NCBI RefSeq assembly: GCF_000971135.1
Contig: NZ_BBLW01000003.1
Location: 186,001 to 250,000, forward strand
Reading direction: 5' to 3'
Source of the DNA: Demequina phytophila
Lineage (GTDB): Bacteria; Actinomycetota; Actinomycetes; Actinomycetales; Demequinaceae
Length of the DNA: 64,000 nucleotides
Below are positions 18,472 to 28,745 of the stretch, piece after piece. Positions within the stretch are counted from its first letter, which is position 1, and each line of letters begins with the position of its first letter. A program made the translations under genes and the position numbers. The notes below the pieces were generated by a model. It saw nothing but the letters and a program-made list of their open reading frames with translations, did no database searches and was not told the DNA's origin.

Positions 18472-19257
18472 ATGACCCAGGATCCGGGTGCCGCTGCGCC
18501 CACGTGCCCGCGGCACCCGGACCGGGTGTCCTACGTCCGCTGCCAGCGCTGCGGACGTCCCGCCTGCCCCGAGTGCCAGCGCCCGGCCGCGGTGGGCATC
18601 CAGTGCGTCGACTGCGTGCGCGAGGCGAAGGCCACCGCGCGACCCATGGTCAACCGCCTGGGATTCGTCAGCGCGATGGGCACGCCCGTCGTCACCTACA
18701 CGCTCGTGGGCCTCAACGTGCTCGCGTACCTGTACGGCACCTTCGTCATGGGCGCGCAGGCGTGGCAGGACGCGTGGGGCCTGTGGACCGGCGTGGGCCC
18801 GGTCGAGGCGGCCATGTACTCGAACGTCGGCACCGAGTGGTACCGCTGGGTGACCTCCGGGTTCGTGCACTTCAACCTGCTGCACATCGCGATGAACATG
18901 CTGGTGCTGGTCCAGTTCGGCACGCAGCTCGAACCCATCCTGGGGCGCCTGCGCTTCCTGGGCCTCTACATGGCCTCGCTCCTGGGAGGCTCGCTCGCCG
19001 CGGTGCTCATCTCCCCCGAGATCGCCCTTCACGGCGGCGCGTCCGGCGCGATCTTCGGCCTCATCACCGCGTACGCGGTGGTGCTCGCGAAGCTCAAACT
19101 CGACTACCGGTCGCTGCTCACCACCGCCGGCATCTGGCTGGCGATCGGCTTCCTGCCGGGCATGAACATCTCGTGGCAGGGCCACCTGGGCGGCGCCGTC
19201 GTCGGCGCGCTCACCATGCTCGCCATGCTGCGCTGGGTGGACCGCAAGCCCGTCTAG
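18472..19257 (+). CDS. Rhomboid family intramembrane serine protease with B-box-like zinc finger
   Basis: Membrane protease cleaving transmembrane substrates. 261 residues: an N-terminal Cys/His-rich zinc-binding module (CPRHPDRVSYVRCQRCGRPACPEC, then GIQCVDC; residues about 12-48), then six transmembrane helices. Rhomboid motifs include the WYRWVTSGFVHFNLLHIAMNM block, the nucleophile GASGAIFG (S191) and GHLGGAVVG (H238), so the catalytic dyad is complete. It starts 6 bp after ppiA and is probably co-transcribed. Substrates unknown; the position beside cell-division genes is conserved. Confidence 0.95.
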   Translation: MTQDPGAAAPTCPRHPDRVSYVRCQRCGRPACPECQRPAAVGIQCVDCVREAKATARPMVNRLGFVSAMGTPVVTYTLVGLNVLAYLYGTFVMGAQAWQDAWGLWTGVGPVEAAMYSNVGTEWYRWVTSGFVHFNLLHIAMNMLVLVQFGTQLEPILGRLRFLGLYMASLLGGSLAAVLISPEIALHGGASGAIFGLITAYAVVLAKLKLDYRSLLTTAGIWLAIGFLPGMNISWQGHLGGAVVGALTMLAMLRWVDRKPV

Positions 19258-19467
19258 CGAGCGCGCACCGTCCCGACTCACGGCCTCACCGCGTCATCGC
19301 GGTGGGGCCGTCCGCGTCCGGGGCTGGCGACCGGGGGACGATGCCCGGGTCGGGTCGCGCGACCGCGGTCACCCGTCGTCGGGGGTCTCCCGCGGGTCCC
19401 CCGGCCGGGACCGCTCACCCGGCCGCGGCATCGTCCACGGAGGTCCACCCACAGGGGTCTGCCCGTT
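19258..19467. other. Intergenic DNA after rhomboid
   Basis: No gene seen. It holds an exact GGGACGATGC at 19335-19344, an inverted core GCATCGTCC at 19428-19436, and a possible terminator arm pair CTCACCGCG-tcat-CGCGGTGGG about 19285-19308 after the rhomboid gene. Confidence 0.5.
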
Positions 19468-19635
19468 TTCTCCACAGACCGGATCTGTGGACAAGTACGG
19501 CGCGATCCCGCGATTTCCCCACAGTCATCCACAGGTGTGAATGACATCCGTGTAGTTATCCCCACCGTTGTGCACAGTTCGGGGATAACTACACCGGTGT
19601 GGTTTCTCCACCGCTGTGGACGGCCGTGGGGATAA
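19468..19635. other. Cluster of DnaA-box-like 9-mers (possible oriC-type or DnaA-titration site)
   Basis: One perfect actinobacterial DnaA box, TTGTCCACA, lies on the minus strand at 19486-19494. Near matches with one difference are TTCTCCACA 19468, TCATCCACA 19525, TTATCCCCA 19556, TTGTGCACA 19568 and TTATCCCCA (minus) 19627-19635. Weaker ones are at 19515, 19580, 19604 and 19615. A perfect 14-bp inverted repeat GTGTAGTTATCCCC (19550-19563) / GGGGATAACTACAC (19581-19594) encloses TTGTGCACA. In Actinobacteria oriC is normally between dnaA and dnaN, neither of which is here, so an auxiliary DnaA-binding locus is as likely as the origin. Confidence 0.6.
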
Positions 19636-19650
19636 CTACAGCAGTGTGAT

Positions 19651-19908
19651 TCAGCGCCAGCGGGTGAGGAGGACCATGCCCCCCGCCATCAGCACGAAGC
19701 CGACGCCGAGGTTCCAGTCGCCGATCCCCGGGATCGGGTAGTTCGCCTTGGTCACGTAGTAGACGACGATCCAGGTGGGCCCCAGGATCAGCAGGGTGAG
19801 CGCCGTGGGCAGGAGCCACTTGGGGTTGTCGCTCTGAGCCTTGCCCAGGTTGCGGGGGGCCTTGTAGACCTGCTGGCCGTTGGTGTCGCGCTTCTTCGAG
19901 AGTGCCAC
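19651..19908 (-). CDS. crgA: Cell division protein CrgA
   Basis: Small membrane protein that coordinates septation and peptidoglycan synthesis in Actinobacteria. 85 residues: basic cytosolic N-terminus (ALSKKRDTNGQQVYKAPRN), two transmembrane helices (about 32-52, WLLPTALTLLILGPTWIVVYYVT; and 66-82, LGVGFVLMAGGMVLLTR) joined by the family linker NYPIPGIGDWN. Start is GTG 19908, with GGAG 6 nt upstream. A TACCCT hexamer at 19963-19958 may be its -10. Divergent from the sortase gene. Confidence 0.94.
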   Translation of the reverse strand: MALSKKRDTNGQQVYKAPRNLGKAQSDNPKWLLPTALTLLILGPTWIVVYYVTKANYPIPGIGDWNLGVGFVLMAGGMVLLTRWR

Positions 19909-21772: not shown

Positions 21773-23017
21773 TCAGCCGCGTCGGACCGTCACCATGAGT
21801 GCGCCGGTCGCGACCACCGCGCACGCCGTCATGACGAGCGCGAGCGGCGCGGCTGTCGCGGTTCCGCCCACGCTCACGAGGGGCGACACCAGCGCCGCGA
21901 GGCCGAACTGCGCCGCGCCCAGCACCGCGGAGGCGGCTCCGGCCCCAGCCGGGACCGCGCCTAGGGCCAGCGCTGTGGCGTTGCCGAACACCAGGCCCAG
22001 GCTGCCCACCCCGACGAACAGCGGCAGCGCGAGCCAGCCCGCGGGCGCGCCGAGCGCGACCAGCGTGCCGAACACCAGCGTCGACGCCAGCAGCACCGCG
22101 ATGCCCGTGACGAGCAGCCGGCGGACGTCGTGGGTCGCCGCGAGCTTCGCCGACACGGCGCTCACCACCATGAGGGCGAGCGCGTTGGCGCCGAACGCCA
22201 GGCCGTAGCCGGTCGTGTCGAGCCCCATCATGTCCTGGTACAGGAACGGCGACGCGGAGATGTACGCCATCATCACGCCGAACGCGAAGGTGAAGACCGC
22301 GGTGTACCCGAGGAACGCGCGCGAGCGCAGCGCACGCAGCGGCGAACCGGTGGCGAGGCGCTCGGCGCGGTCCGCGAGGCGCCGGTCTGCGGGGTAGGAC
22401 TCCCGCACCACCGCGATCACGGCGACGAGCATCACCACGGAGAGCGCCAGCACCACGGCGAGGATGCCGCGCCAGCCGATCGGCTCGACCAGGAATCCAC
22501 CCACCACGGGCGCGATCACGGGCGCGACGCCGCCGACGATCATCATGAGGCTGAACGCGCGCGCCGCCGCCTTCCCGGTCGCGAGGTCCGAGATGATCGC
22601 GCGGCCGATCACCATGCCGGCGGCTCCGCCGAGGCCCTGGAGCAGCCGCGCGCCGATCAGCACGGCGGGGCTGGGGGCGAGCACGGTGGCGATGCCGGCG
22701 ACCACCATGAGCAGGCAGCCGGCGAGCAGCGGGGGCACTCGACCGAACCGGTCGGACAGCGGCCCGAACACCAGCTGACCCGCGGTCACGCCCACGAGGA
22801 ACGCGGTGAGGGTGAGCTGCACGGCGGTCGCGCCGGTCCCCAGCTCCGCGGCCATCTGCGGGAACGCCGGGAGGTACAGATCCGTCGCGAACGGCGCGAT
22901 GGCGGACAGCAGGCCGAGCACCGCGAGCAGGGCGGCGGTGATGGCGGCGCCGGTGGACGATGCGGCGGTCGCCCTGGCCTCGGAGGTGGCGGCCTGGGGG
23001 TGCGCGGGCGCGGACAT
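21773..23017 (-). CDS. Bcr/CflA-type multidrug efflux MFS transporter
   Basis: Twelve-helix drug/proton antiporter. 414 residues from ATG 23017, with GAGGAG upstream; the longer open frame reaching into the regulator is not coding. Family marks are LGLLSAIAPFATDLYLPAFPQM in helix 1, FGPLSDRFGRVPPLLAG in loop 2-3, GLGGAAGMVIGRAII (motif C region) and GWRGILAVVLALS. Divergent from a MarR regulator across 70 bp that carries a palindrome, so it is likely repressed by that MarR and induced by its ligand. Confidence 0.9.
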   Translation of the reverse strand: MSAPAHPQAATSEARATAASSTGAAITAALLAVLGLLSAIAPFATDLYLPAFPQMAAELGTGATAVQLTLTAFLVGVTAGQLVFGPLSDRFGRVPPLLAGCLLMVVAGIATVLAPSPAVLIGARLLQGLGGAAGMVIGRAIISDLATGKAAARAFSLMMIVGGVAPVIAPVVGGFLVEPIGWRGILAVVLALSVVMLVAVIAVVRESYPADRRLADRAERLATGSPLRALRSRAFLGYTAVFTFAFGVMMAYISASPFLYQDMMGLDTTGYGLAFGANALALMVVSAVSAKLAATHDVRRLLVTGIAVLLASTLVFGTLVALGAPAGWLALPLFVGVGSLGLVFGNATALALGAVPAGAGAASAVLGAAQFGLAALVSPLVSVGGTATAAPLALVMTACAVVATGALMVTVRRG

Positions 23018-23040
23018 AGGGACTCCTCGCGGTGAATTGA

Positions 23041-23054
23041 TTATGAAATCATAA
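23041..23054. promoter_or_regulatory. MarR operator palindrome
   Basis: TTATGA-aa-TCATAA, a perfect dyad in an AT-rich patch between the divergent MFS and marR genes. It covers the -35 side of the marR promoter (TACCCT at 23075-23080, 7 nt before the ATG), and its minus-strand CATAAT could be the -10 of the MFS gene. Confidence 0.7.
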
Positions 23055-23087
23055 CTGAACGGGCCTCGCGACGGTACCCTCGGACGC

Positions 23088-23528
23088 ATGGTTGAGGACG
23101 ACCCCACCGACCGCGAGCTCGCGGAGTTCGCCGAGTCCATCCTGCGGATCGCGCGCGAGCTGGATCCCCATGCGGCCGGCGTGGACGTGGTCCCGCTGAC
23201 GGGCACGGAGACCGCCGTCCTGCGATGGATCCACCACCACCCGGGGGCGTCGCCCAGCGCGGTCGCGGACGCGACGGGCCTGCGCCGGCCCAACCTCTCC
23301 GCGGCGGTCCGCAGCCTCGAGGACAAGGGGCTGGTGCGCCGGTCGCCCGACCCCGCGGATCATCGGCAGCAGCACCTCGAGGCCACCGCGCTCGCGGACG
23401 AGGGCGTCGAGCGGCTGCACGCCTACTGGTCGTCGCGGGTTCGCGAGGCGCTCGGCGGCGCGGTGGGCGGGGCATCCGCGGCGGCGGGGCTGCTCGACCG
23501 CCTCGAGTCGGGCCTGCGCGCGCGCTGA
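23088..23528 (+). CDS. MarR-family transcriptional regulator
   Basis: Winged-helix repressor. 146 residues, the usual MarR length: N-terminal dimer helices, recognition region ETAVLRWIHHHPGASPSAVADATGLRRPNLSAAVRSLEDKGLV (about 41-83) and wing RSPDPADHRQQHLEATA. The ATG lies 7 nt after TACCCT, a leaderless start. It probably represses itself and the divergent MFS exporter through the palindrome at 23041. It converges on the carotenoid operon. Confidence 0.9.
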   Translation: MVEDDPTDRELAEFAESILRIARELDPHAAGVDVVPLTGTETAVLRWIHHHPGASPSAVADATGLRRPNLSAAVRSLEDKGLVRRSPDPADHRQQHLEATALADEGVERLHAYWSSRVREALGGAVGGASAAAGLLDRLESGLRAR

Positions 23529-23666
23529 CCGCCGGCGCCGTTGACTTCCAATGACGGATGTGACGCGAATGCACCCGTGGTGCAGGTGAGGCAGCCCCAT
23601 CCTTCACGCGGCAACACACCTGTCACAAGTGTCATGGGGAATCGACGCGCCAGCTGACCCGACACC

Positions 23667-24539
23667 TCACCAGGCGGCGATCACCAGCAGCGTGACCGCG
23701 AACCCGACCGGCTGATTGAGCCACAGGAAGGTGCGCCAGCCGCGGTTCGCGTCCTCGCACGTCTCGTCGGTGACGCCCACGAACCGCGCGACCGAGACCA
23801 CGTACGCGAGCGGGAGGAGCGCCGCGAGCAGCGCGGGCCACGGCAGCGCCAGCAGCACCAGCGCGGAGGCGACGTAGAGCGCGATGGAGAACCACACCGT
23901 GGCGCGCGCCCCGATCACCGTCGCGACCGAGCCGATCGCGCCCTCGCGGTCGGCGCGCACGTCCTGCACCGCGCCGAACGCGTGACTGGCCATGCCCCAC
24001 ATGATGAACGCCACCCACACCGGCCACGCGCCCGGGTCGAGCAGCGACTCCCCCGCCAGCACCAGCGCATAGACCAGGGGCCCCGCGAAGTGCAGCGCGG
24101 ACGTCAGCGAGTCGAGGAACGGCCGCTCCTTGAACCGCAGCCCCGGCGCCGAGTACGCCACCACCCCGAACAGCACCAGCACCAGCGTGACACCCGCCGC
24201 CACCGACCCCTGCAGCACCAGCCACACGAACGGCGGGATCACGGTGATCGCGCATGCCCACAGGATCGCGCGGTGCACGCGCCGCGCCTCCGTCCGGTCG
24301 CGGATCACGTCCCCCTCGATGCCGCCCTTGCGGGGGTTCGCGAGGTCGGACTCGTAGTCGAAGACGTCGTTGATGCCGTACATCAGCAGGTTGTACGGGA
24401 TGAGGAAGAACAGCGTCCCCACCACCAGCACCGCGTCCACCTGATGCGTCACCAGCAGGTACGCGGCGGCGAACGGGAACGCGGTGTTGATCCAGGACAC
24501 CGGGCGCGAGGCCCGCACCAGCGCGGCGAGCGTGCTCAC
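23667..24539 (-). CDS. crtEb: UbiA-family prenyltransferase (lycopene elongase, CrtEb type)
   Basis: Last gene of the C50 carotenoid operon; adds dimethylallyl units to lycopene to give flavuxanthin-like C50 products. 290 residues, multi-pass membrane. The first Asp-rich motif is NDVFDYESD (about residue 68), and the second region GAVQDVRADREGAIGSVATVIGAR is present as in CrtEb/UbiA. GTG 24539 is chosen because it overlaps the crtYf stop by 4 bp (GTGA), as for every junction in this operon. The function rests on the crtYe/crtYf neighbours; UbiA homology alone would be ambiguous. Confidence 0.87.
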   Translation of the reverse strand: MSTLAALVRASRPVSWINTAFPFAAAYLLVTHQVDAVLVVGTLFFLIPYNLLMYGINDVFDYESDLANPRKGGIEGDVIRDRTEARRVHRAILWACAITVIPPFVWLVLQGSVAAGVTLVLVLFGVVAYSAPGLRFKERPFLDSLTSALHFAGPLVYALVLAGESLLDPGAWPVWVAFIMWGMASHAFGAVQDVRADREGAIGSVATVIGARATVWFSIALYVASALVLLALPWPALLAALLPLAYVVSVARFVGVTDETCEDANRGWRTFLWLNQPVGFAVTLLVIAAW

Positions 24540-24820
24540 TCGCGCGCCAGCCACGTCCACAGCGCGGGCACCAGCATCACGGCTCCCAGCGTGTAGGAGA
24601 AGTCCTCGAGGGGCGCGGATCCCACGCGGACGCCGGAGATGAGCGACTCGTCGTATGCCACGATCCCGAGGCCCACGATGACGTTGTCGAAGATCGTGGT
24701 GAGGGCGATGAGCACCAGTCCGGTGAGCAGCAGGGGACGATGCGGCAGTCGCCTCAGCGTGGGCACGGTCACCGCGGCGATGAGCGCCAGGACGGCGACG
24801 GAGAGGAGCGCGTAGGTCAT
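24536..24820 (-). CDS. crtYf: C50 carotenoid epsilon-cyclase subunit CrtYf
   Basis: One half of the heterodimeric lycopene-type cyclase. 94 residues with three transmembrane helices and the cyclase-domain motif TIFDNVIVGLGIVAYDESLISG ... APLEDFSYTLGAV, which carries the conserved acidic PLEDF. It starts within the crtYe stop (ATGA) and its own stop overlaps crtEb. The assignment of Yf versus Ye follows the Corynebacterium order Ye-Yf-Eb. Confidence 0.87.
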   Translation of the reverse strand: MTYALLSVAVLALIAAVTVPTLRRLPHRPLLLTGLVLIALTTIFDNVIVGLGIVAYDESLISGVRVGSAPLEDFSYTLGAVMLVPALWTWLARE

Positions 24821-25143
24821 GCGGGCTCCTGCGCGCGGTGGCTGCGGTGAAGCCAGCGCCACAGCAGCAGCGTCTGATACACGAGCAGGACGAGGAAGAA
24901 CAGCTCCTCGAGGGGCACCTCGGGCGCGAGGAGCACGCCGGTGAGGTAGGGCGCGTCGCCGATGAAGAAGATCCCCAGCCCCACCCCGACCGCGTCCCAC
25001 GCGAGGAAGAACGCGACCGCGATCGCCACGGTGAGCAGCGCGGGTCGGGGACGGTCGAACACCGCGACGCGATACCGCCGGTCCAGCAGGACCAGCCCTG
25101 CGATCGACACGAGCAGCGCGCCCAGGTAGGCGAAGGACGTCAC
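24817..25143 (-). CDS. crtYe: C50 carotenoid epsilon-cyclase subunit CrtYe
   Basis: Other half of the cyclase. 108 residues, three transmembrane helices, with the lycopene cyclase-domain blocks LAWDAVGVGLGIFFIGDAPYLTGVLLAPEVPLEELFFL (acidic PLEELFF motif at about 77-83). GTG 25143 overlaps the crtI stop by 4 bp. The long frame upstream in the same phase is a shadow of crtI. Confidence 0.87.
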   Translation of the reverse strand: MTSFAYLGALLVSIAGLVLLDRRYRVAVFDRPRPALLTVAIAVAFFLAWDAVGVGLGIFFIGDAPYLTGVLLAPEVPLEELFFLVLLVYQTLLLWRWLHRSHRAQEPA

Positions 25144-26756
25144 GCGCCGGCCCGCCGCGCGAGGTTGCCCAGGATCCCGCGGTCGCGCGAGCGTGCGAGG
25201 AAGCCCGGCGGGGCGGGCGCGGGCAGCGGACCCACGTCGACCGCGCCGAGCAGCCGCTTCGCCACGAGCTCCGCAGAGATCAGGCACAGCGGCACCCCGA
25301 TCCCGGGCACCGTGGACGCCCCGGCGTACAGGAGGTTGGGCACCTTCGAGGAGACGTTCGCGGGCCGGAACAGCGCGGACTGCGTGAGGGTGTGCTCGAG
25401 TCCGAGCGCGCCGCCCTCCCAGGCGCCCATCTGCGTCGCGAAGTCGGAGGGGGTGGTGACGCGCAGCACGGTGGAGCGGTCGGCGAGATCCGGCACCCCC
25501 GCCCAGGTCCCCACCTGCGCGAGGTAGCGCCGGCCCAGCGCCATGAGCGCCGCACGCGACTCGGGCGTCTCCCCGAGCGTGGTGTCCGCGGGGAACGGCA
25601 CCAGCATGAACAGCGAGTCCTTGCCCGGGGGCGACACCGCAGGGTCCGTGGCGCCCACCCGGGACACGTAGATGGACGCGGGCACGGGCGGCAGGTCGCG
25701 CGCGAGGATCGCGTCGAAGTGGGCGTCCCAGTCGCGCGTGAACAGCAGGTTGTGGTGCGCGAGCTCGGGCACGGAGCCGTCGACCTCGGCCATCACCAGC
25801 AGCGCGCTCACGCCGGGCTTGCGCCGCCGCCACGTCTTCTCGGGATGAGCTCGCCACTCCTCGGGTACCAGCGCCGTCTCCAGGTGGTGGAGGTCCGCTG
25901 CGCCCACCACGGCATCGGCCCGCACCACCTCGCCCGACTCGAGGGTGACGCCGGTCGCGAAGCCGCGATCGTCCACCAGCACCCGCGCGACGGGCGAGCC
26001 GGTGCGCAGGTCCGCTCCCGCGTCGCGTGCCACGCGCGCGATGGCCTCCGTGACCGCGTACATGCCGCCGCGGGGGTAGCGCACGCCGTCGGTGAGGTCC
26101 AGGTGGCTCATCAGCGAGAACAGTCCCGGCGCGCGGTCGGGCGAGGATCCCAGGAACACCGCGTGGAAGCCGAGGATCTGGCGAAGCCGGGGGTCGCGGA
26201 CGCGTAACGCGATGCGCGCGCCGAGCGAGCGCGCGAGCAGCCCGGCGAGCAGCGGCAGGCGGCGCATCACCTCGCCGTTCACCACCGCTTGGGGCCGCGC
26301 GAACGTGGTGTAGAGGAAGCGTTCGAGAGCGAAGCGGTAGAGGACCCCTGCCTCCTCGGCGTAGGCGCGCATCGCGTCGCCCTCGCCGGGGCTCAATGAG
26401 TCGAAGCGTCGCCAGTTCTTCTCGGGATCCGCGGACACGTCGAGGGTCGACGCCGTTTCCCACGGGTCGTCGCCCTCGAAGAACACGCGGTAGCGCGGGT
26501 CGAGGTCGACCAGGTCGAGCTCCTGCTCGACGTCCCGGCCCATGAGCGCGAACCATTGCGCGAACGCCTCGGGCATGAGGTACCAGGAGGGGCCCGAGTC
26601 GAACGTGTGGCCGGCCACCTCCACACGCCCCATGCGTCCGCCCAACGTCGCGTGCTTCTCGAGCAGCACCACGTCGGCGCCGCCGCGCGCGAGCAGGCCC
26701 GCGGACGCGAGCCCCGCGACGCCGCCGCCGATCACCACGACCCGCGGGCCGGTCAT
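25140..26756 (-). CDS. crtI: Phytoene desaturase
   Basis: FAD-dependent enzyme converting phytoene to lycopene. 538 residues: N-terminal dinucleotide-binding motif VVVIGGGVAGLASAGLLARGGADVVLLEKHATLGGRMG, the DSGPSWYLMPEAF block, GGMYAVTEAIARVARDAGADL, and the C-terminal CrtI signature NLLYAGASTVPGIGVPLCLISAELVAKRLL. Full length for the family. ATG overlaps the crtB stop (ATGA). Confidence 0.96.
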   Translation of the reverse strand: MTGPRVVVIGGGVAGLASAGLLARGGADVVLLEKHATLGGRMGRVEVAGHTFDSGPSWYLMPEAFAQWFALMGRDVEQELDLVDLDPRYRVFFEGDDPWETASTLDVSADPEKNWRRFDSLSPGEGDAMRAYAEEAGVLYRFALERFLYTTFARPQAVVNGEVMRRLPLLAGLLARSLGARIALRVRDPRLRQILGFHAVFLGSSPDRAPGLFSLMSHLDLTDGVRYPRGGMYAVTEAIARVARDAGADLRTGSPVARVLVDDRGFATGVTLESGEVVRADAVVGAADLHHLETALVPEEWRAHPEKTWRRRKPGVSALLVMAEVDGSVPELAHHNLLFTRDWDAHFDAILARDLPPVPASIYVSRVGATDPAVSPPGKDSLFMLVPFPADTTLGETPESRAALMALGRRYLAQVGTWAGVPDLADRSTVLRVTTPSDFATQMGAWEGGALGLEHTLTQSALFRPANVSSKVPNLLYAGASTVPGIGVPLCLISAELVAKRLLGAVDVGPLPAPAPPGFLARSRDRGILGNLARRAGA

Positions 26757-27646
26757 GCGGTGCTCCAGGGGCGGAGGGCGGCCAGGTTGCGCGCCGCCAG
26801 CGACGCCTTGACCGGGTTGGGGACCCGCACCCGACGGGTGACGAGCCTCCGCGCGGGGGTCTCCGCGATCTGGTCGAGCAGCCGCGCGTAGATGTCGATG
26901 GTGGTGCCCACCGCCGCCCGCGCGCGTGGGGGGAGCGCCCCCAGCACCTCCTGCGCCGCCGCGATGTCCCCCCGGCACTCCTCGACGAGGCCCGCGAGCC
27001 GCGCATCGTCCAGCGTTGCGGCCGTGACGCCGGGGAAGTAGCTGCGCCCCAGCTCGCCGTCGTCCGTCGCGAGATCCCGCAGGAAGTTCACCTTCTGATA
27101 CGCGGCGCCGAGGCGCCGCGCGCCCGCGCGGACCTCGGGGTCGAGCGGTCGCGGCCCGGCGCCGGTGTTGACGAAGACGGCGAGGCACATCTCCCCCACC
27201 ACCTCCGCGGAGCCGAAGATGTACCGCGCGAGCGAGTCGGCGTCGTGTGCCGTCGCGGTCAGGTCCATGCGCATGGACGCGAAGAACGGCTCGGTCTGCT
27301 CGTGCGTGATCCCGACCTCGCGCGCGGTGAGCGCGAACGCGTGCGCGACCAGGTCGGTGCTGAAGCCGCGGTCCATCGCGGCGTGGACCTCGGCCTCGAA
27401 CGCGTCGAGCAGCTCGCCCGCATCGGGCCCGCGGTAGGTGTCGACGATCTCGTCGGCGACGCGCACCATCGCGTACACGTTCCTGATGTGGGTGCGCTGC
27501 GCACGGGCCAGCAGCCGCGTGCCGAGCCCGAAGGACGTCGAGTAGCGGGCGATCACGCGCGCGGCGGCGTCGCGTGCCGCGGCGTCGTAGAGGGCGAGGC
27601 TGGCGGCGCCGTCGTCGTGCCGTCGCCGTCGCGAGCGGCGGCTCAC
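26753..27646 (-). CDS. crtB: Phytoene synthase
   Basis: Condenses two GGPP to phytoene. 297 residues. Squalene/phytoene synthase motifs: YSTSFGLGTRLL, first Asp-rich motif VRVADEIVDTYRG (DEIVD), and second motif YQKVNFLRDLATDDGELGRSYFP (RDLATDDGELGR). GTG 27646 overlaps the crtE stop (GTGA). It begins with an Arg-rich stretch, SRRSRRRRH. Confidence 0.96.
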   Translation of the reverse strand: MSRRSRRRRHDDGAASLALYDAAARDAAARVIARYSTSFGLGTRLLARAQRTHIRNVYAMVRVADEIVDTYRGPDAGELLDAFEAEVHAAMDRGFSTDLVAHAFALTAREVGITHEQTEPFFASMRMDLTATAHDADSLARYIFGSAEVVGEMCLAVFVNTGAGPRPLDPEVRAGARRLGAAYQKVNFLRDLATDDGELGRSYFPGVTAATLDDARLAGLVEECRGDIAAAQEVLGALPPRARAAVGTTIDIYARLLDQIAETPARRLVTRRVRVPNPVKASLAARNLAALRPWSTA

Positions 27647-28725
27647 GAGAGCCGGTCCGCGAGGCTGTCGATGAGGTCCACCAGGTAGCCCGACAGCGGC
27701 GCCGGGATCCGCTCGGAGGCGATGCGTCGCGCGAGGCGGCCGTGCTGACGCGCCGTGCGGAGCGCATGCTCCCGGGCCCCCGACGCGATGAGCACCTCTC
27801 GCACGCGAGCGGCCCCGTCCTCGTCCAGGCGAGGGTCGCCGACGGAGGCCTCGAGCACGGCCCTGCCCGCGGCATCGGCCCGTTGGAAGCCCAGGCGCAG
27901 CAGCTCGGTGCGCTTGCCGGCGCGCAGATCCGACAGGACGGACTTGCCGGTGACGGCGGGGTCGCCGAACACGCCCAGGTCGTCGTCCACCAGCTGGAAG
28001 CTCAGGCCCAGCGAGGCGCCCAGCTTCTCGAGGTGGCTCACCATGGTCGGGTCGCCGCCCGCGAGCTGCGCGCCGGCCAGCAGCGGCACGATGCACGAGT
28101 AGGTGGCCGTCTTGAGCTCCGCGACCACCAGCGAGTCCGCCTGCTCGGGGGCCACCATGCCGCCGTACATGTCGAGCAGCTCGCCCGCGATGGTGGTGCG
28201 GATCGCGCGGGTGATGAGGTCGAGGCACGCGATGCGGTGGTGGGCGGGCAGCTTCGCGCGGGAGATCAGGTCGTAGGACGATGCGAGGGCCAGGTCGCCT
28301 CCCAGGAGGGCGGCGGACAGGACGTGGGACTCGACCTGCGCGGGCGGGAGGCCGCTGGTCGCCAGCGCGGCACGCCGGGTGCCGGCGACGTTGGGACGGC
28401 CGCGGCGCACCTCGTCGCCGTCGAGCAGGTCGTCGTGGATGAGCATCGCGGTGTGGAGCATCTCCATCGCCGCGGCGACGGGCACGGCCGCCTCGGCGTC
28501 CTCGCCGCCCAGGCCCGCGTAGGCCGCGAGCGTGAGCGAGGGTCGCAGGTCCTTGCCGCCCAGGTACTGGTCGCCGATGGACGCCCACAGGTCGCGGTAG
28601 TCGGCGCCCGCGGAGGGCAGCTCGAGCATCGCACGCTCGACGTGGCGGTCGAGCGTGGCACGTACGTCGTCGAGATTGGCCTCGACGAAGTCGCGTACCC
28701 CGGCAACGGTCCCCAGCGGCGTCAT
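27643..28725 (-). CDS. crtE: Geranylgeranyl diphosphate synthase
   Basis: First gene of the carotenoid operon crtE-B-I-Ye-Yf-Eb; makes the C20 precursor. About 360 residues. Polyprenyl synthetase motifs: FARM HDDLLDGDEVRRGRP, LLGGDLALASSY, and SARM FQLVDDDLGVFGD. ATG 28725 lies 6 nt after TATCCT (28737-28732), giving a leaderless start; GTG 28728 is the alternative. No idi or MmpL-type gene accompanies the cluster. Expected end product is decaprenoxanthin or a related C50 pigment. Confidence 0.94.
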   Translation of the reverse strand: MTPLGTVAGVRDFVEANLDDVRATLDRHVERAMLELPSAGADYRDLWASIGDQYLGGKDLRPSLTLAAYAGLGGEDAEAAVPVAAAMEMLHTAMLIHDDLLDGDEVRRGRPNVAGTRRAALATSGLPPAQVESHVLSAALLGGDLALASSYDLISRAKLPAHHRIACLDLITRAIRTTIAGELLDMYGGMVAPEQADSLVVAELKTATYSCIVPLLAGAQLAGGDPTMVSHLEKLGASLGLSFQLVDDDLGVFGDPAVTGKSVLSDLRAGKRTELLRLGFQRADAAGRAVLEASVGDPRLDEDGAARVREVLIASGAREHALRTARQHGRLARRIASERIPAPLSGYLVDLIDSLADRLS

Positions 28726-28745
28726 CACGACAGGATAGACAGCAC

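Follow-up and report, generated by a model that had tools for sequence, protein, structure and literature searches.

The Escherichia coli locus datA is an intergenic DnaA-box cluster outside oriC that is able to bind much DnaA; it requires IHF and promotes DnaA-ATP hydrolysis, and its loss leads to untimely initiation. DARS1 and DARS2 of the same species are compact DnaA-box arrays outside oriC, in which a three-box core of fixed arrangement, together with IHF and Fis sites, promotes ADP-to-ATP exchange. The DnaA-box clusters of Streptomyces coelicolor were reportedly described by Smulczyk-Krawczyszyn et al. in 2006, and one of them, H69, may lie at crgA, the gene that is Rv0011c in Mycobacterium tuberculosis. 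In S. coelicolor and Bacillus subtilis, untimely initiation is repressed by datA-like DnaA-box clusters close to oriC (PMC4585315, PMC5742627), and B. subtilis has eight intergenic regions with such clusters (PMC4451416). Hicks et al. (2020) used IDAP-seq in vitro for M. tuberculosis and ChIP-seq in vivo for M. smegmatis to map DnaA, and the top five mycobacterial sites were oriC, rpmH-dnaA, the region upstream of dnaB, Rv3843c-RVnc0040 and Rv0010c-Rv0011c (PMC7738170). Recurrent mutations at Rv0010c-Rv0011c fell in a palindrome of two box-like sequences and mimicked dnaA mutations; cells were longer, while the rate of initiation stayed the same. The authors saw no obvious counterpart of this site in other species (PMC7738170). 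We consider it likely that a DnaA-box cluster beside crgA of Demequina phytophila is such a counterpart and serves, outside oriC, as a control site that DnaA binds.

The window that we analysed, 64,000 nucleotides in length, comprises bases 186001-250000 of a 409-kb contig. The cluster as a whole (19431..19635, no strand assigned) contained 13 sites with at most two mismatches to TTRTCCACA, of which 6 had at most one; counted on both strands, there were one perfect box, five single-mismatch boxes and seven two-mismatch boxes, in agreement with an earlier, sequence-only reading of the window. It lies between a rhomboid-family membrane protein gene (18472..19257, + strand; an ORF with family matches at E 4e-13), whose 3' end adjoins it, and crgA (19651..19908, - strand; 85 aa, GTG start; NCBIfam CrgA E 5e-18, Pfam PF06781 above the cut-off), whose stop codon abuts it. 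The two genes are convergent, with their 3' ends facing each other. The cluster is thus downstream of the crgA stop codon, not upstream of the gene as that reading had placed it, and, being situated between two gene 3' ends, it is the promoter of neither gene. A sigma-70 promoter scan found nothing.

From the rhomboid side, the individual boxes were TTCTCCACA (19468..19476, +, 1 mismatch); the perfect box TTGTCCACA (19486..19494, -, 0 mismatches), which is one of 10 copies in the whole genome; TCATCCACA (19525..19533, +, 1 mismatch); TCATTCACA (19536..19544, -, 2 mismatches), which the genus conserves as [T/C][T/C]ATTCACA; TTATCCCCA (19556..19564, +, 1 mismatch), a variant with strong enrichment at this locus among relatives; TTGTGCACA (19568..19576, +, 1 mismatch), 12 bp from the preceding box; TTATCCCCG (19580..19588, -, 2 mismatches); CCGTCCACA (19615..19623, -, 2 mismatches), with the next box 12 bp away; and a second copy of TTATCCCCA (19627..19635, -, 1 mismatch). 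The perfect 14-bp inverted repeat that had been noticed around a box was also present (19550..19594, no strand assigned). Its arms, GTGTAGTTATCCCC (19550-19563) and GGGGATAACTACAC (19581-19594), enclose the box TTGTGCACA, and the right arm holds TTATCCCCG. Three palindrome-like copies, none with a strand, start exactly 47 bp apart: ACATCCGTGT (19544..19553), ACACCGGTGT (19591..19600), which is the form best conserved across families, and ACAGCAGTGT (19638..19647), which adjoins the crgA stop.

This density was exceptional. In 2000 dinucleotide shuffles of the 393-bp rhomboid-crgA intergenic region, sites with at most one mismatch numbered 0.12 ± 0.34 (maximum 3) against 6 observed, and sites with at most two mismatches numbered 1.3 (maximum 6) against 13 observed. 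When 200-bp stretches were ranked over 2.58 of the 2.98 Mb of the genome (86%), the crgA cluster came first with its 6 sites of at most one mismatch, compared with 3 in each of the next-ranked stretches; the Poisson expectation for such a cluster anywhere was about 1e-8. By an identical count it was also denser in boxes than the dnaA-dnaN oriC, a point in favor of a second or displaced replication origin. We regard an origin here as extremely improbable, because an oriC with its own boxes exists before dnaN (about 172.3-172.6 kb of the contig, with dnaA at 170487-171773), the core of the cluster has a G+C content of 56% and no strongly AT-rich stretch, and the corresponding mycobacterial region has not been described as an origin. 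An oriC is placed between dnaA and dnaN or beside dnaA, whereas the cluster lies 33 kb from the oriC boxes on the same contig; as the sequence-only reading had said, the window contains neither dnaA nor dnaN, which are found about 33 kb left of the cluster, and the suggestion that the cluster could be part of oriC was not supported. GC skew was flat across the 409-kb contig and at the cluster, giving no origin signal either way. Within the window, an MFS transporter, a MarR-like regulator and apparent carotenoid/prenyl genes (21773-28728) lie between a pabA/trpG-like gene and pknB and break up the usual origin-flank gene block.

The second-ranked cluster was located in the gap from the 3' end of rplI to the start of dnaB (G000:C10:137697-137847; L017:17697-17847); it has two perfect TTGTCCACA boxes and lies 35 kb from oriC, on the side opposite to the crgA cluster. 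The two leading clusters of this genome therefore occupy the crgA and dnaB positions, both of which are among the mycobacterial top five (PMC7738170), and D. phytophila shares with mycobacteria the presence of DnaA boxes clustered ahead of dnaB. With the Rv0010c-Rv0011c site, the crgA cluster shares its place beside the crgA 3' end, a box cluster, a palindrome of two box-like sequences and proximity to the origin. The two differ in that a co-directional Rv0010c stands next to crgA in M. tuberculosis, whereas the rhomboid gene here is convergent, and in that there are three palindrome-like copies with 47-bp spacing here; the comparison is one of position and layout. We infer orthology with the mycobacterial site and predict that DnaA binds the cluster in D. 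phytophila. Elsewhere in the scanned genome, just one further clear GTTATCCCC-type site was accompanied by boxes, at G000:C4:148071-148220 (L059:8071-8220). There TTATCCCCA, TTATCCACC and CTGTGGATT occur within about 150 bp, and the site precedes a 450-aa ORF that resembles HNH-nuclease (DUF222-type) proteins.

The cluster resembles datA in being an intergenic DnaA-box cluster outside oriC, and differs from it in position and box layout; with DARS1 and DARS2 it shares the compact array outside oriC. It resembles the S. coelicolor clusters in lying near oriC in an actinobacterium. The B. subtilis clusters, which bind DnaA and restrain initiation, are likewise intergenic, although they belong to another phylum and to other loci, and we know of no composite palindrome that they share with the present site. 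A search of the genome with an Hda model yielded DnaA plus other proteins only, all below the cut-off, and thus no Hda-type inactivator by the model's curated cut-off. An actinobacterial-type IHF gene is present; neither of these results has a direct bearing on the cluster.

The cluster was conserved within the genus. The sequence-only reading had taken absence of the boxes from close relatives as grounds for giving up its proposal; crgA was present in 44 of 44 genus genomes, and at least one box with at most one mismatch occurred in the 450 bp after crgA at 27 of 30 genus loci. The core of the inverted repeat, TGTAGTTNTCCCC - N16/17 - GGGGANAACTACA, was found at 29 of the 30; the search pattern fixes most bases, so that their invariance is by construction, which does not apply to the number of matching loci. 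Six genus loci (L151, L157, L163, L162, L166 and L168) had three TGTGAC direct repeats with a 9-bp period inside the cluster, about 150-190 bp past the crgA stop, which resemble the published MtrA motif; this triple repeat was not seen in the D. phytophila window.

The position of the cluster, precisely where two convergent genes end, would also suit a role at the RNA level, in which the palindromic array would be a 3' hairpin or bidirectional terminator common to the rhomboid and crgA transcripts. The strand gave a long hairpin fold (z = -6.8), and an imperfect palindrome of 116 bp occupies 19538-19653. A terminator scan, however, detected nothing resembling a terminator with a T run, and an Rfam search returned chance matches only, with no family. 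Box position 3 varied independently in the two arms, and the pair was broken in 12 of 26 distinct genus loci with zero compensating changes, whereas among the bases beyond the search pattern both arms retained A and ACA at set places. DnaA boxes are tolerant at position 3. The uncompensated breaks therefore favor a DNA site read by a protein rather than a hairpin in RNA, even though the single strand of this species' copy folds strongly. Moreover, loci with just one or two boxes still have them at this site, and the cluster leaves the crgA transcript where sequence is inserted beside crgA (see below). Taken together, an RNA-level role seems quite unlikely to us.

To survey other families, we used 80 named loci from a genome scan with a narrow CrgA alignment, which biased the sample toward Cellulomonas, Dermatophilaceae and Arthrobacter (the loci were mostly from these groups and Ruaniaceae). 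Over these loci, box density was 9.6, 10.3 and 6.3 per kb in the first, second and third 100-bp bins past the crgA stop, and the rest of the flanks had about 0.2 per kb. At least one box lay within 700 bp of crgA in 72 of the 80, and about half had at least three; no recognisable boxes were seen in L247, L255, L263 and L266. When 41 kb of site (genus included) was compared with 515 kb of flanks, the counts were 74 vs 0 for TTATCCACA, 42 vs 0 for TTGTCCACA, 36 vs 0 for TTATCCCCA, 27 vs 1 for TTGTCCCCA, 13 vs 0 for TTGTGCACA and 12 vs 0 for TTATTCACA. The commonest tolerated changes were at box positions 2, 3, 5 and 7, and also at position 1 when position 3 was G. Boxes in tandem preferred a spacing of 12 or 13 bp, and facing boxes one of 10 or 11 bp. 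Two Dermatophilaceae-like loci (L192 and L199) apparently have a small Flp-pilin-like gene that separates crgA from the box cluster. L272 (WNZI01000003.1), a record titled Vibrio cholerae strain 35D, has a crgA locus of Micrococcaceae type together with its box cluster and is probably a case of contamination or mislabelling.

The class-wide check was confined to the coordinates of exact boxes in the roughly 400 bp that follow crgA. By this measure, each of the four single-chromosome genomes listed for family f37, presumably Streptomyces, had exact boxes just downstream of crgA, as did five of eight genomes from other families (G583, G658 with five boxes, G514, G436 with two, and G418); none was found by exact-box coordinates in G555, G409 and G343. 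Of the Mycobacterium-like genomes, G583, which we take to be Mycobacterium, had one such box 116 bp beyond crgA, and G555 had none by the same exact-box measure. The conservation indicates that the mycobacterial crgA site is part of a common actinobacterial plan, and the cluster is probably an old, ancestral actinobacterial replication control site rather than a promoter or a second origin.

In four of the loci (L211, L241, L278 and L283), crgA and the cluster were separated by other sequence, and the cluster was at the rhomboid 3' end, 0.85-1.6 kb off. As the cluster stays with the rhomboid gene when crgA is displaced, the element is independent of the crgA transcript. Another possibility is that bound DnaA acts as a roadblock between the converging transcription units, or as a regulator of crgA or the rhomboid gene. 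A DnaA-DnaA-box complex is said to be able to end transcription (Schaefer and Messer, 1989), which, with the convergent gene position, would fit a roadblock. On the other hand, the cluster is at the 5' end of neither gene, the downstream gene depends on the lineage (rhomboid here, Rv0010c in M. tuberculosis) whereas the site is constant, and the expression of neither Rv0010c nor Rv0011c is changed in M. tuberculosis dnaA mutants (PMC7738170). We therefore hold transcriptional blocking or regulation to be distinctly improbable, and the crgA regulatory region envisaged in the sequence-only reading was not supported, given the 3' position, the persistence of the cluster beside the rhomboid gene and the unchanged expression.

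Across families, the most conserved arrangement was [TGTGGATAA]-CTACACCGGTGTAAT-[TCCACA], in which box-like sequence stands on both sides of a ACACNNGTGT palindrome, and within the genome this composite module is almost unique to the crgA locus. Clustered DnaA boxes and a palindrome whose two halves are box-like occur together at this locus, as they do in mycobacteria. The ACAYNNRTGT palindrome was present in 77 of 110 loci, a 68-fold enrichment, and ACACCGGTGT had 33 copies at the site and 1 in the flanks, a 230-fold enrichment. Such figures, the near confinement of the module to this locus, and the fact that the bases ahead of the box are as strictly kept in the genus as the box itself would all be expected if the locus were chiefly the site of another protein at ACACNNGTGT, with the DnaA boxes as partner sites or by-products. 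This explanation appears unlikely, given that the strongest enrichment is that of perfect boxes, that DnaA binding has been demonstrated at the mycobacterial counterpart (PMC7738170), and that boxes occur at many loci where no palindrome can be recognised, 33 of the 110 lacking it.

The palindrome by itself may nevertheless be the site of another protein. WhiA, which recognizes GACAC (PMC3781837), was considered as its binder and set aside, since many palindrome copies read TACAC. A HigA2 motif, ATCAC-N(4-7)-GTGAT, has been placed at the crgA-adjacent DnaA site of M. tuberculosis, which HigA2 reportedly binds at micromolar concentration (PMC11205783). The GAATCACACNNGTGTGATTC form of the palindrome and AATCACACNNGTGTGATT fit this motif. 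Judged from motif fit, this supports, without proving, the view that the palindrome here is the same as that at the M. tuberculosis site.

If the cluster is a DnaA-binding control site, several DnaA molecules would probably lie side by side on boxes 12-13 bp apart, about one helical turn, in an array organised around the ACACNNGTGT palindrome. The site would be replicated very soon after initiation because it is only 33 kb from oriC, and early copying would suit it to controlling the DnaA that is free for oriC. The newly copied site could draw DnaA from oriC or alter DnaA activity, and the level of free active DnaA would then influence the timing of the next round and the matching of replication to cell growth. 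The second DnaA-binding locus proposed in the sequence-only reading gained support from the conservation and from the mycobacterial binding data (PMC7738170); for the titration or reactivation role that came with it, we infer only a datA-like principle of titration or activity control. Plain titration fits poorly, because the mycobacterial mutants have long cells and an unchanged initiation rate (PMC7738170). More tentatively, the locus may represent a class-wide ancestral site of Actinobacteria at which DnaA and a putative partner on the ACACNNGTGT palindrome set DnaA availability or nucleotide state, replacing control of the Hda, datA or DARS type; we think this possible, though doubtful.

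The cluster is a conserved element predicted to bind DnaA, of a known kind, and the crgA locus itself is already known in mycobacteria (PMC7738170). In the open-access literature we found no description of its class-wide conservation or of the composite palindrome, and an earlier description elsewhere is possible. The conservation allows over 100 natural variants to be aligned, and it singles out the palindrome, so that a binding partner can be sought. Restraint of DnaA in Actinobacteria is not well understood, and the crgA locus is a concrete candidate for it.
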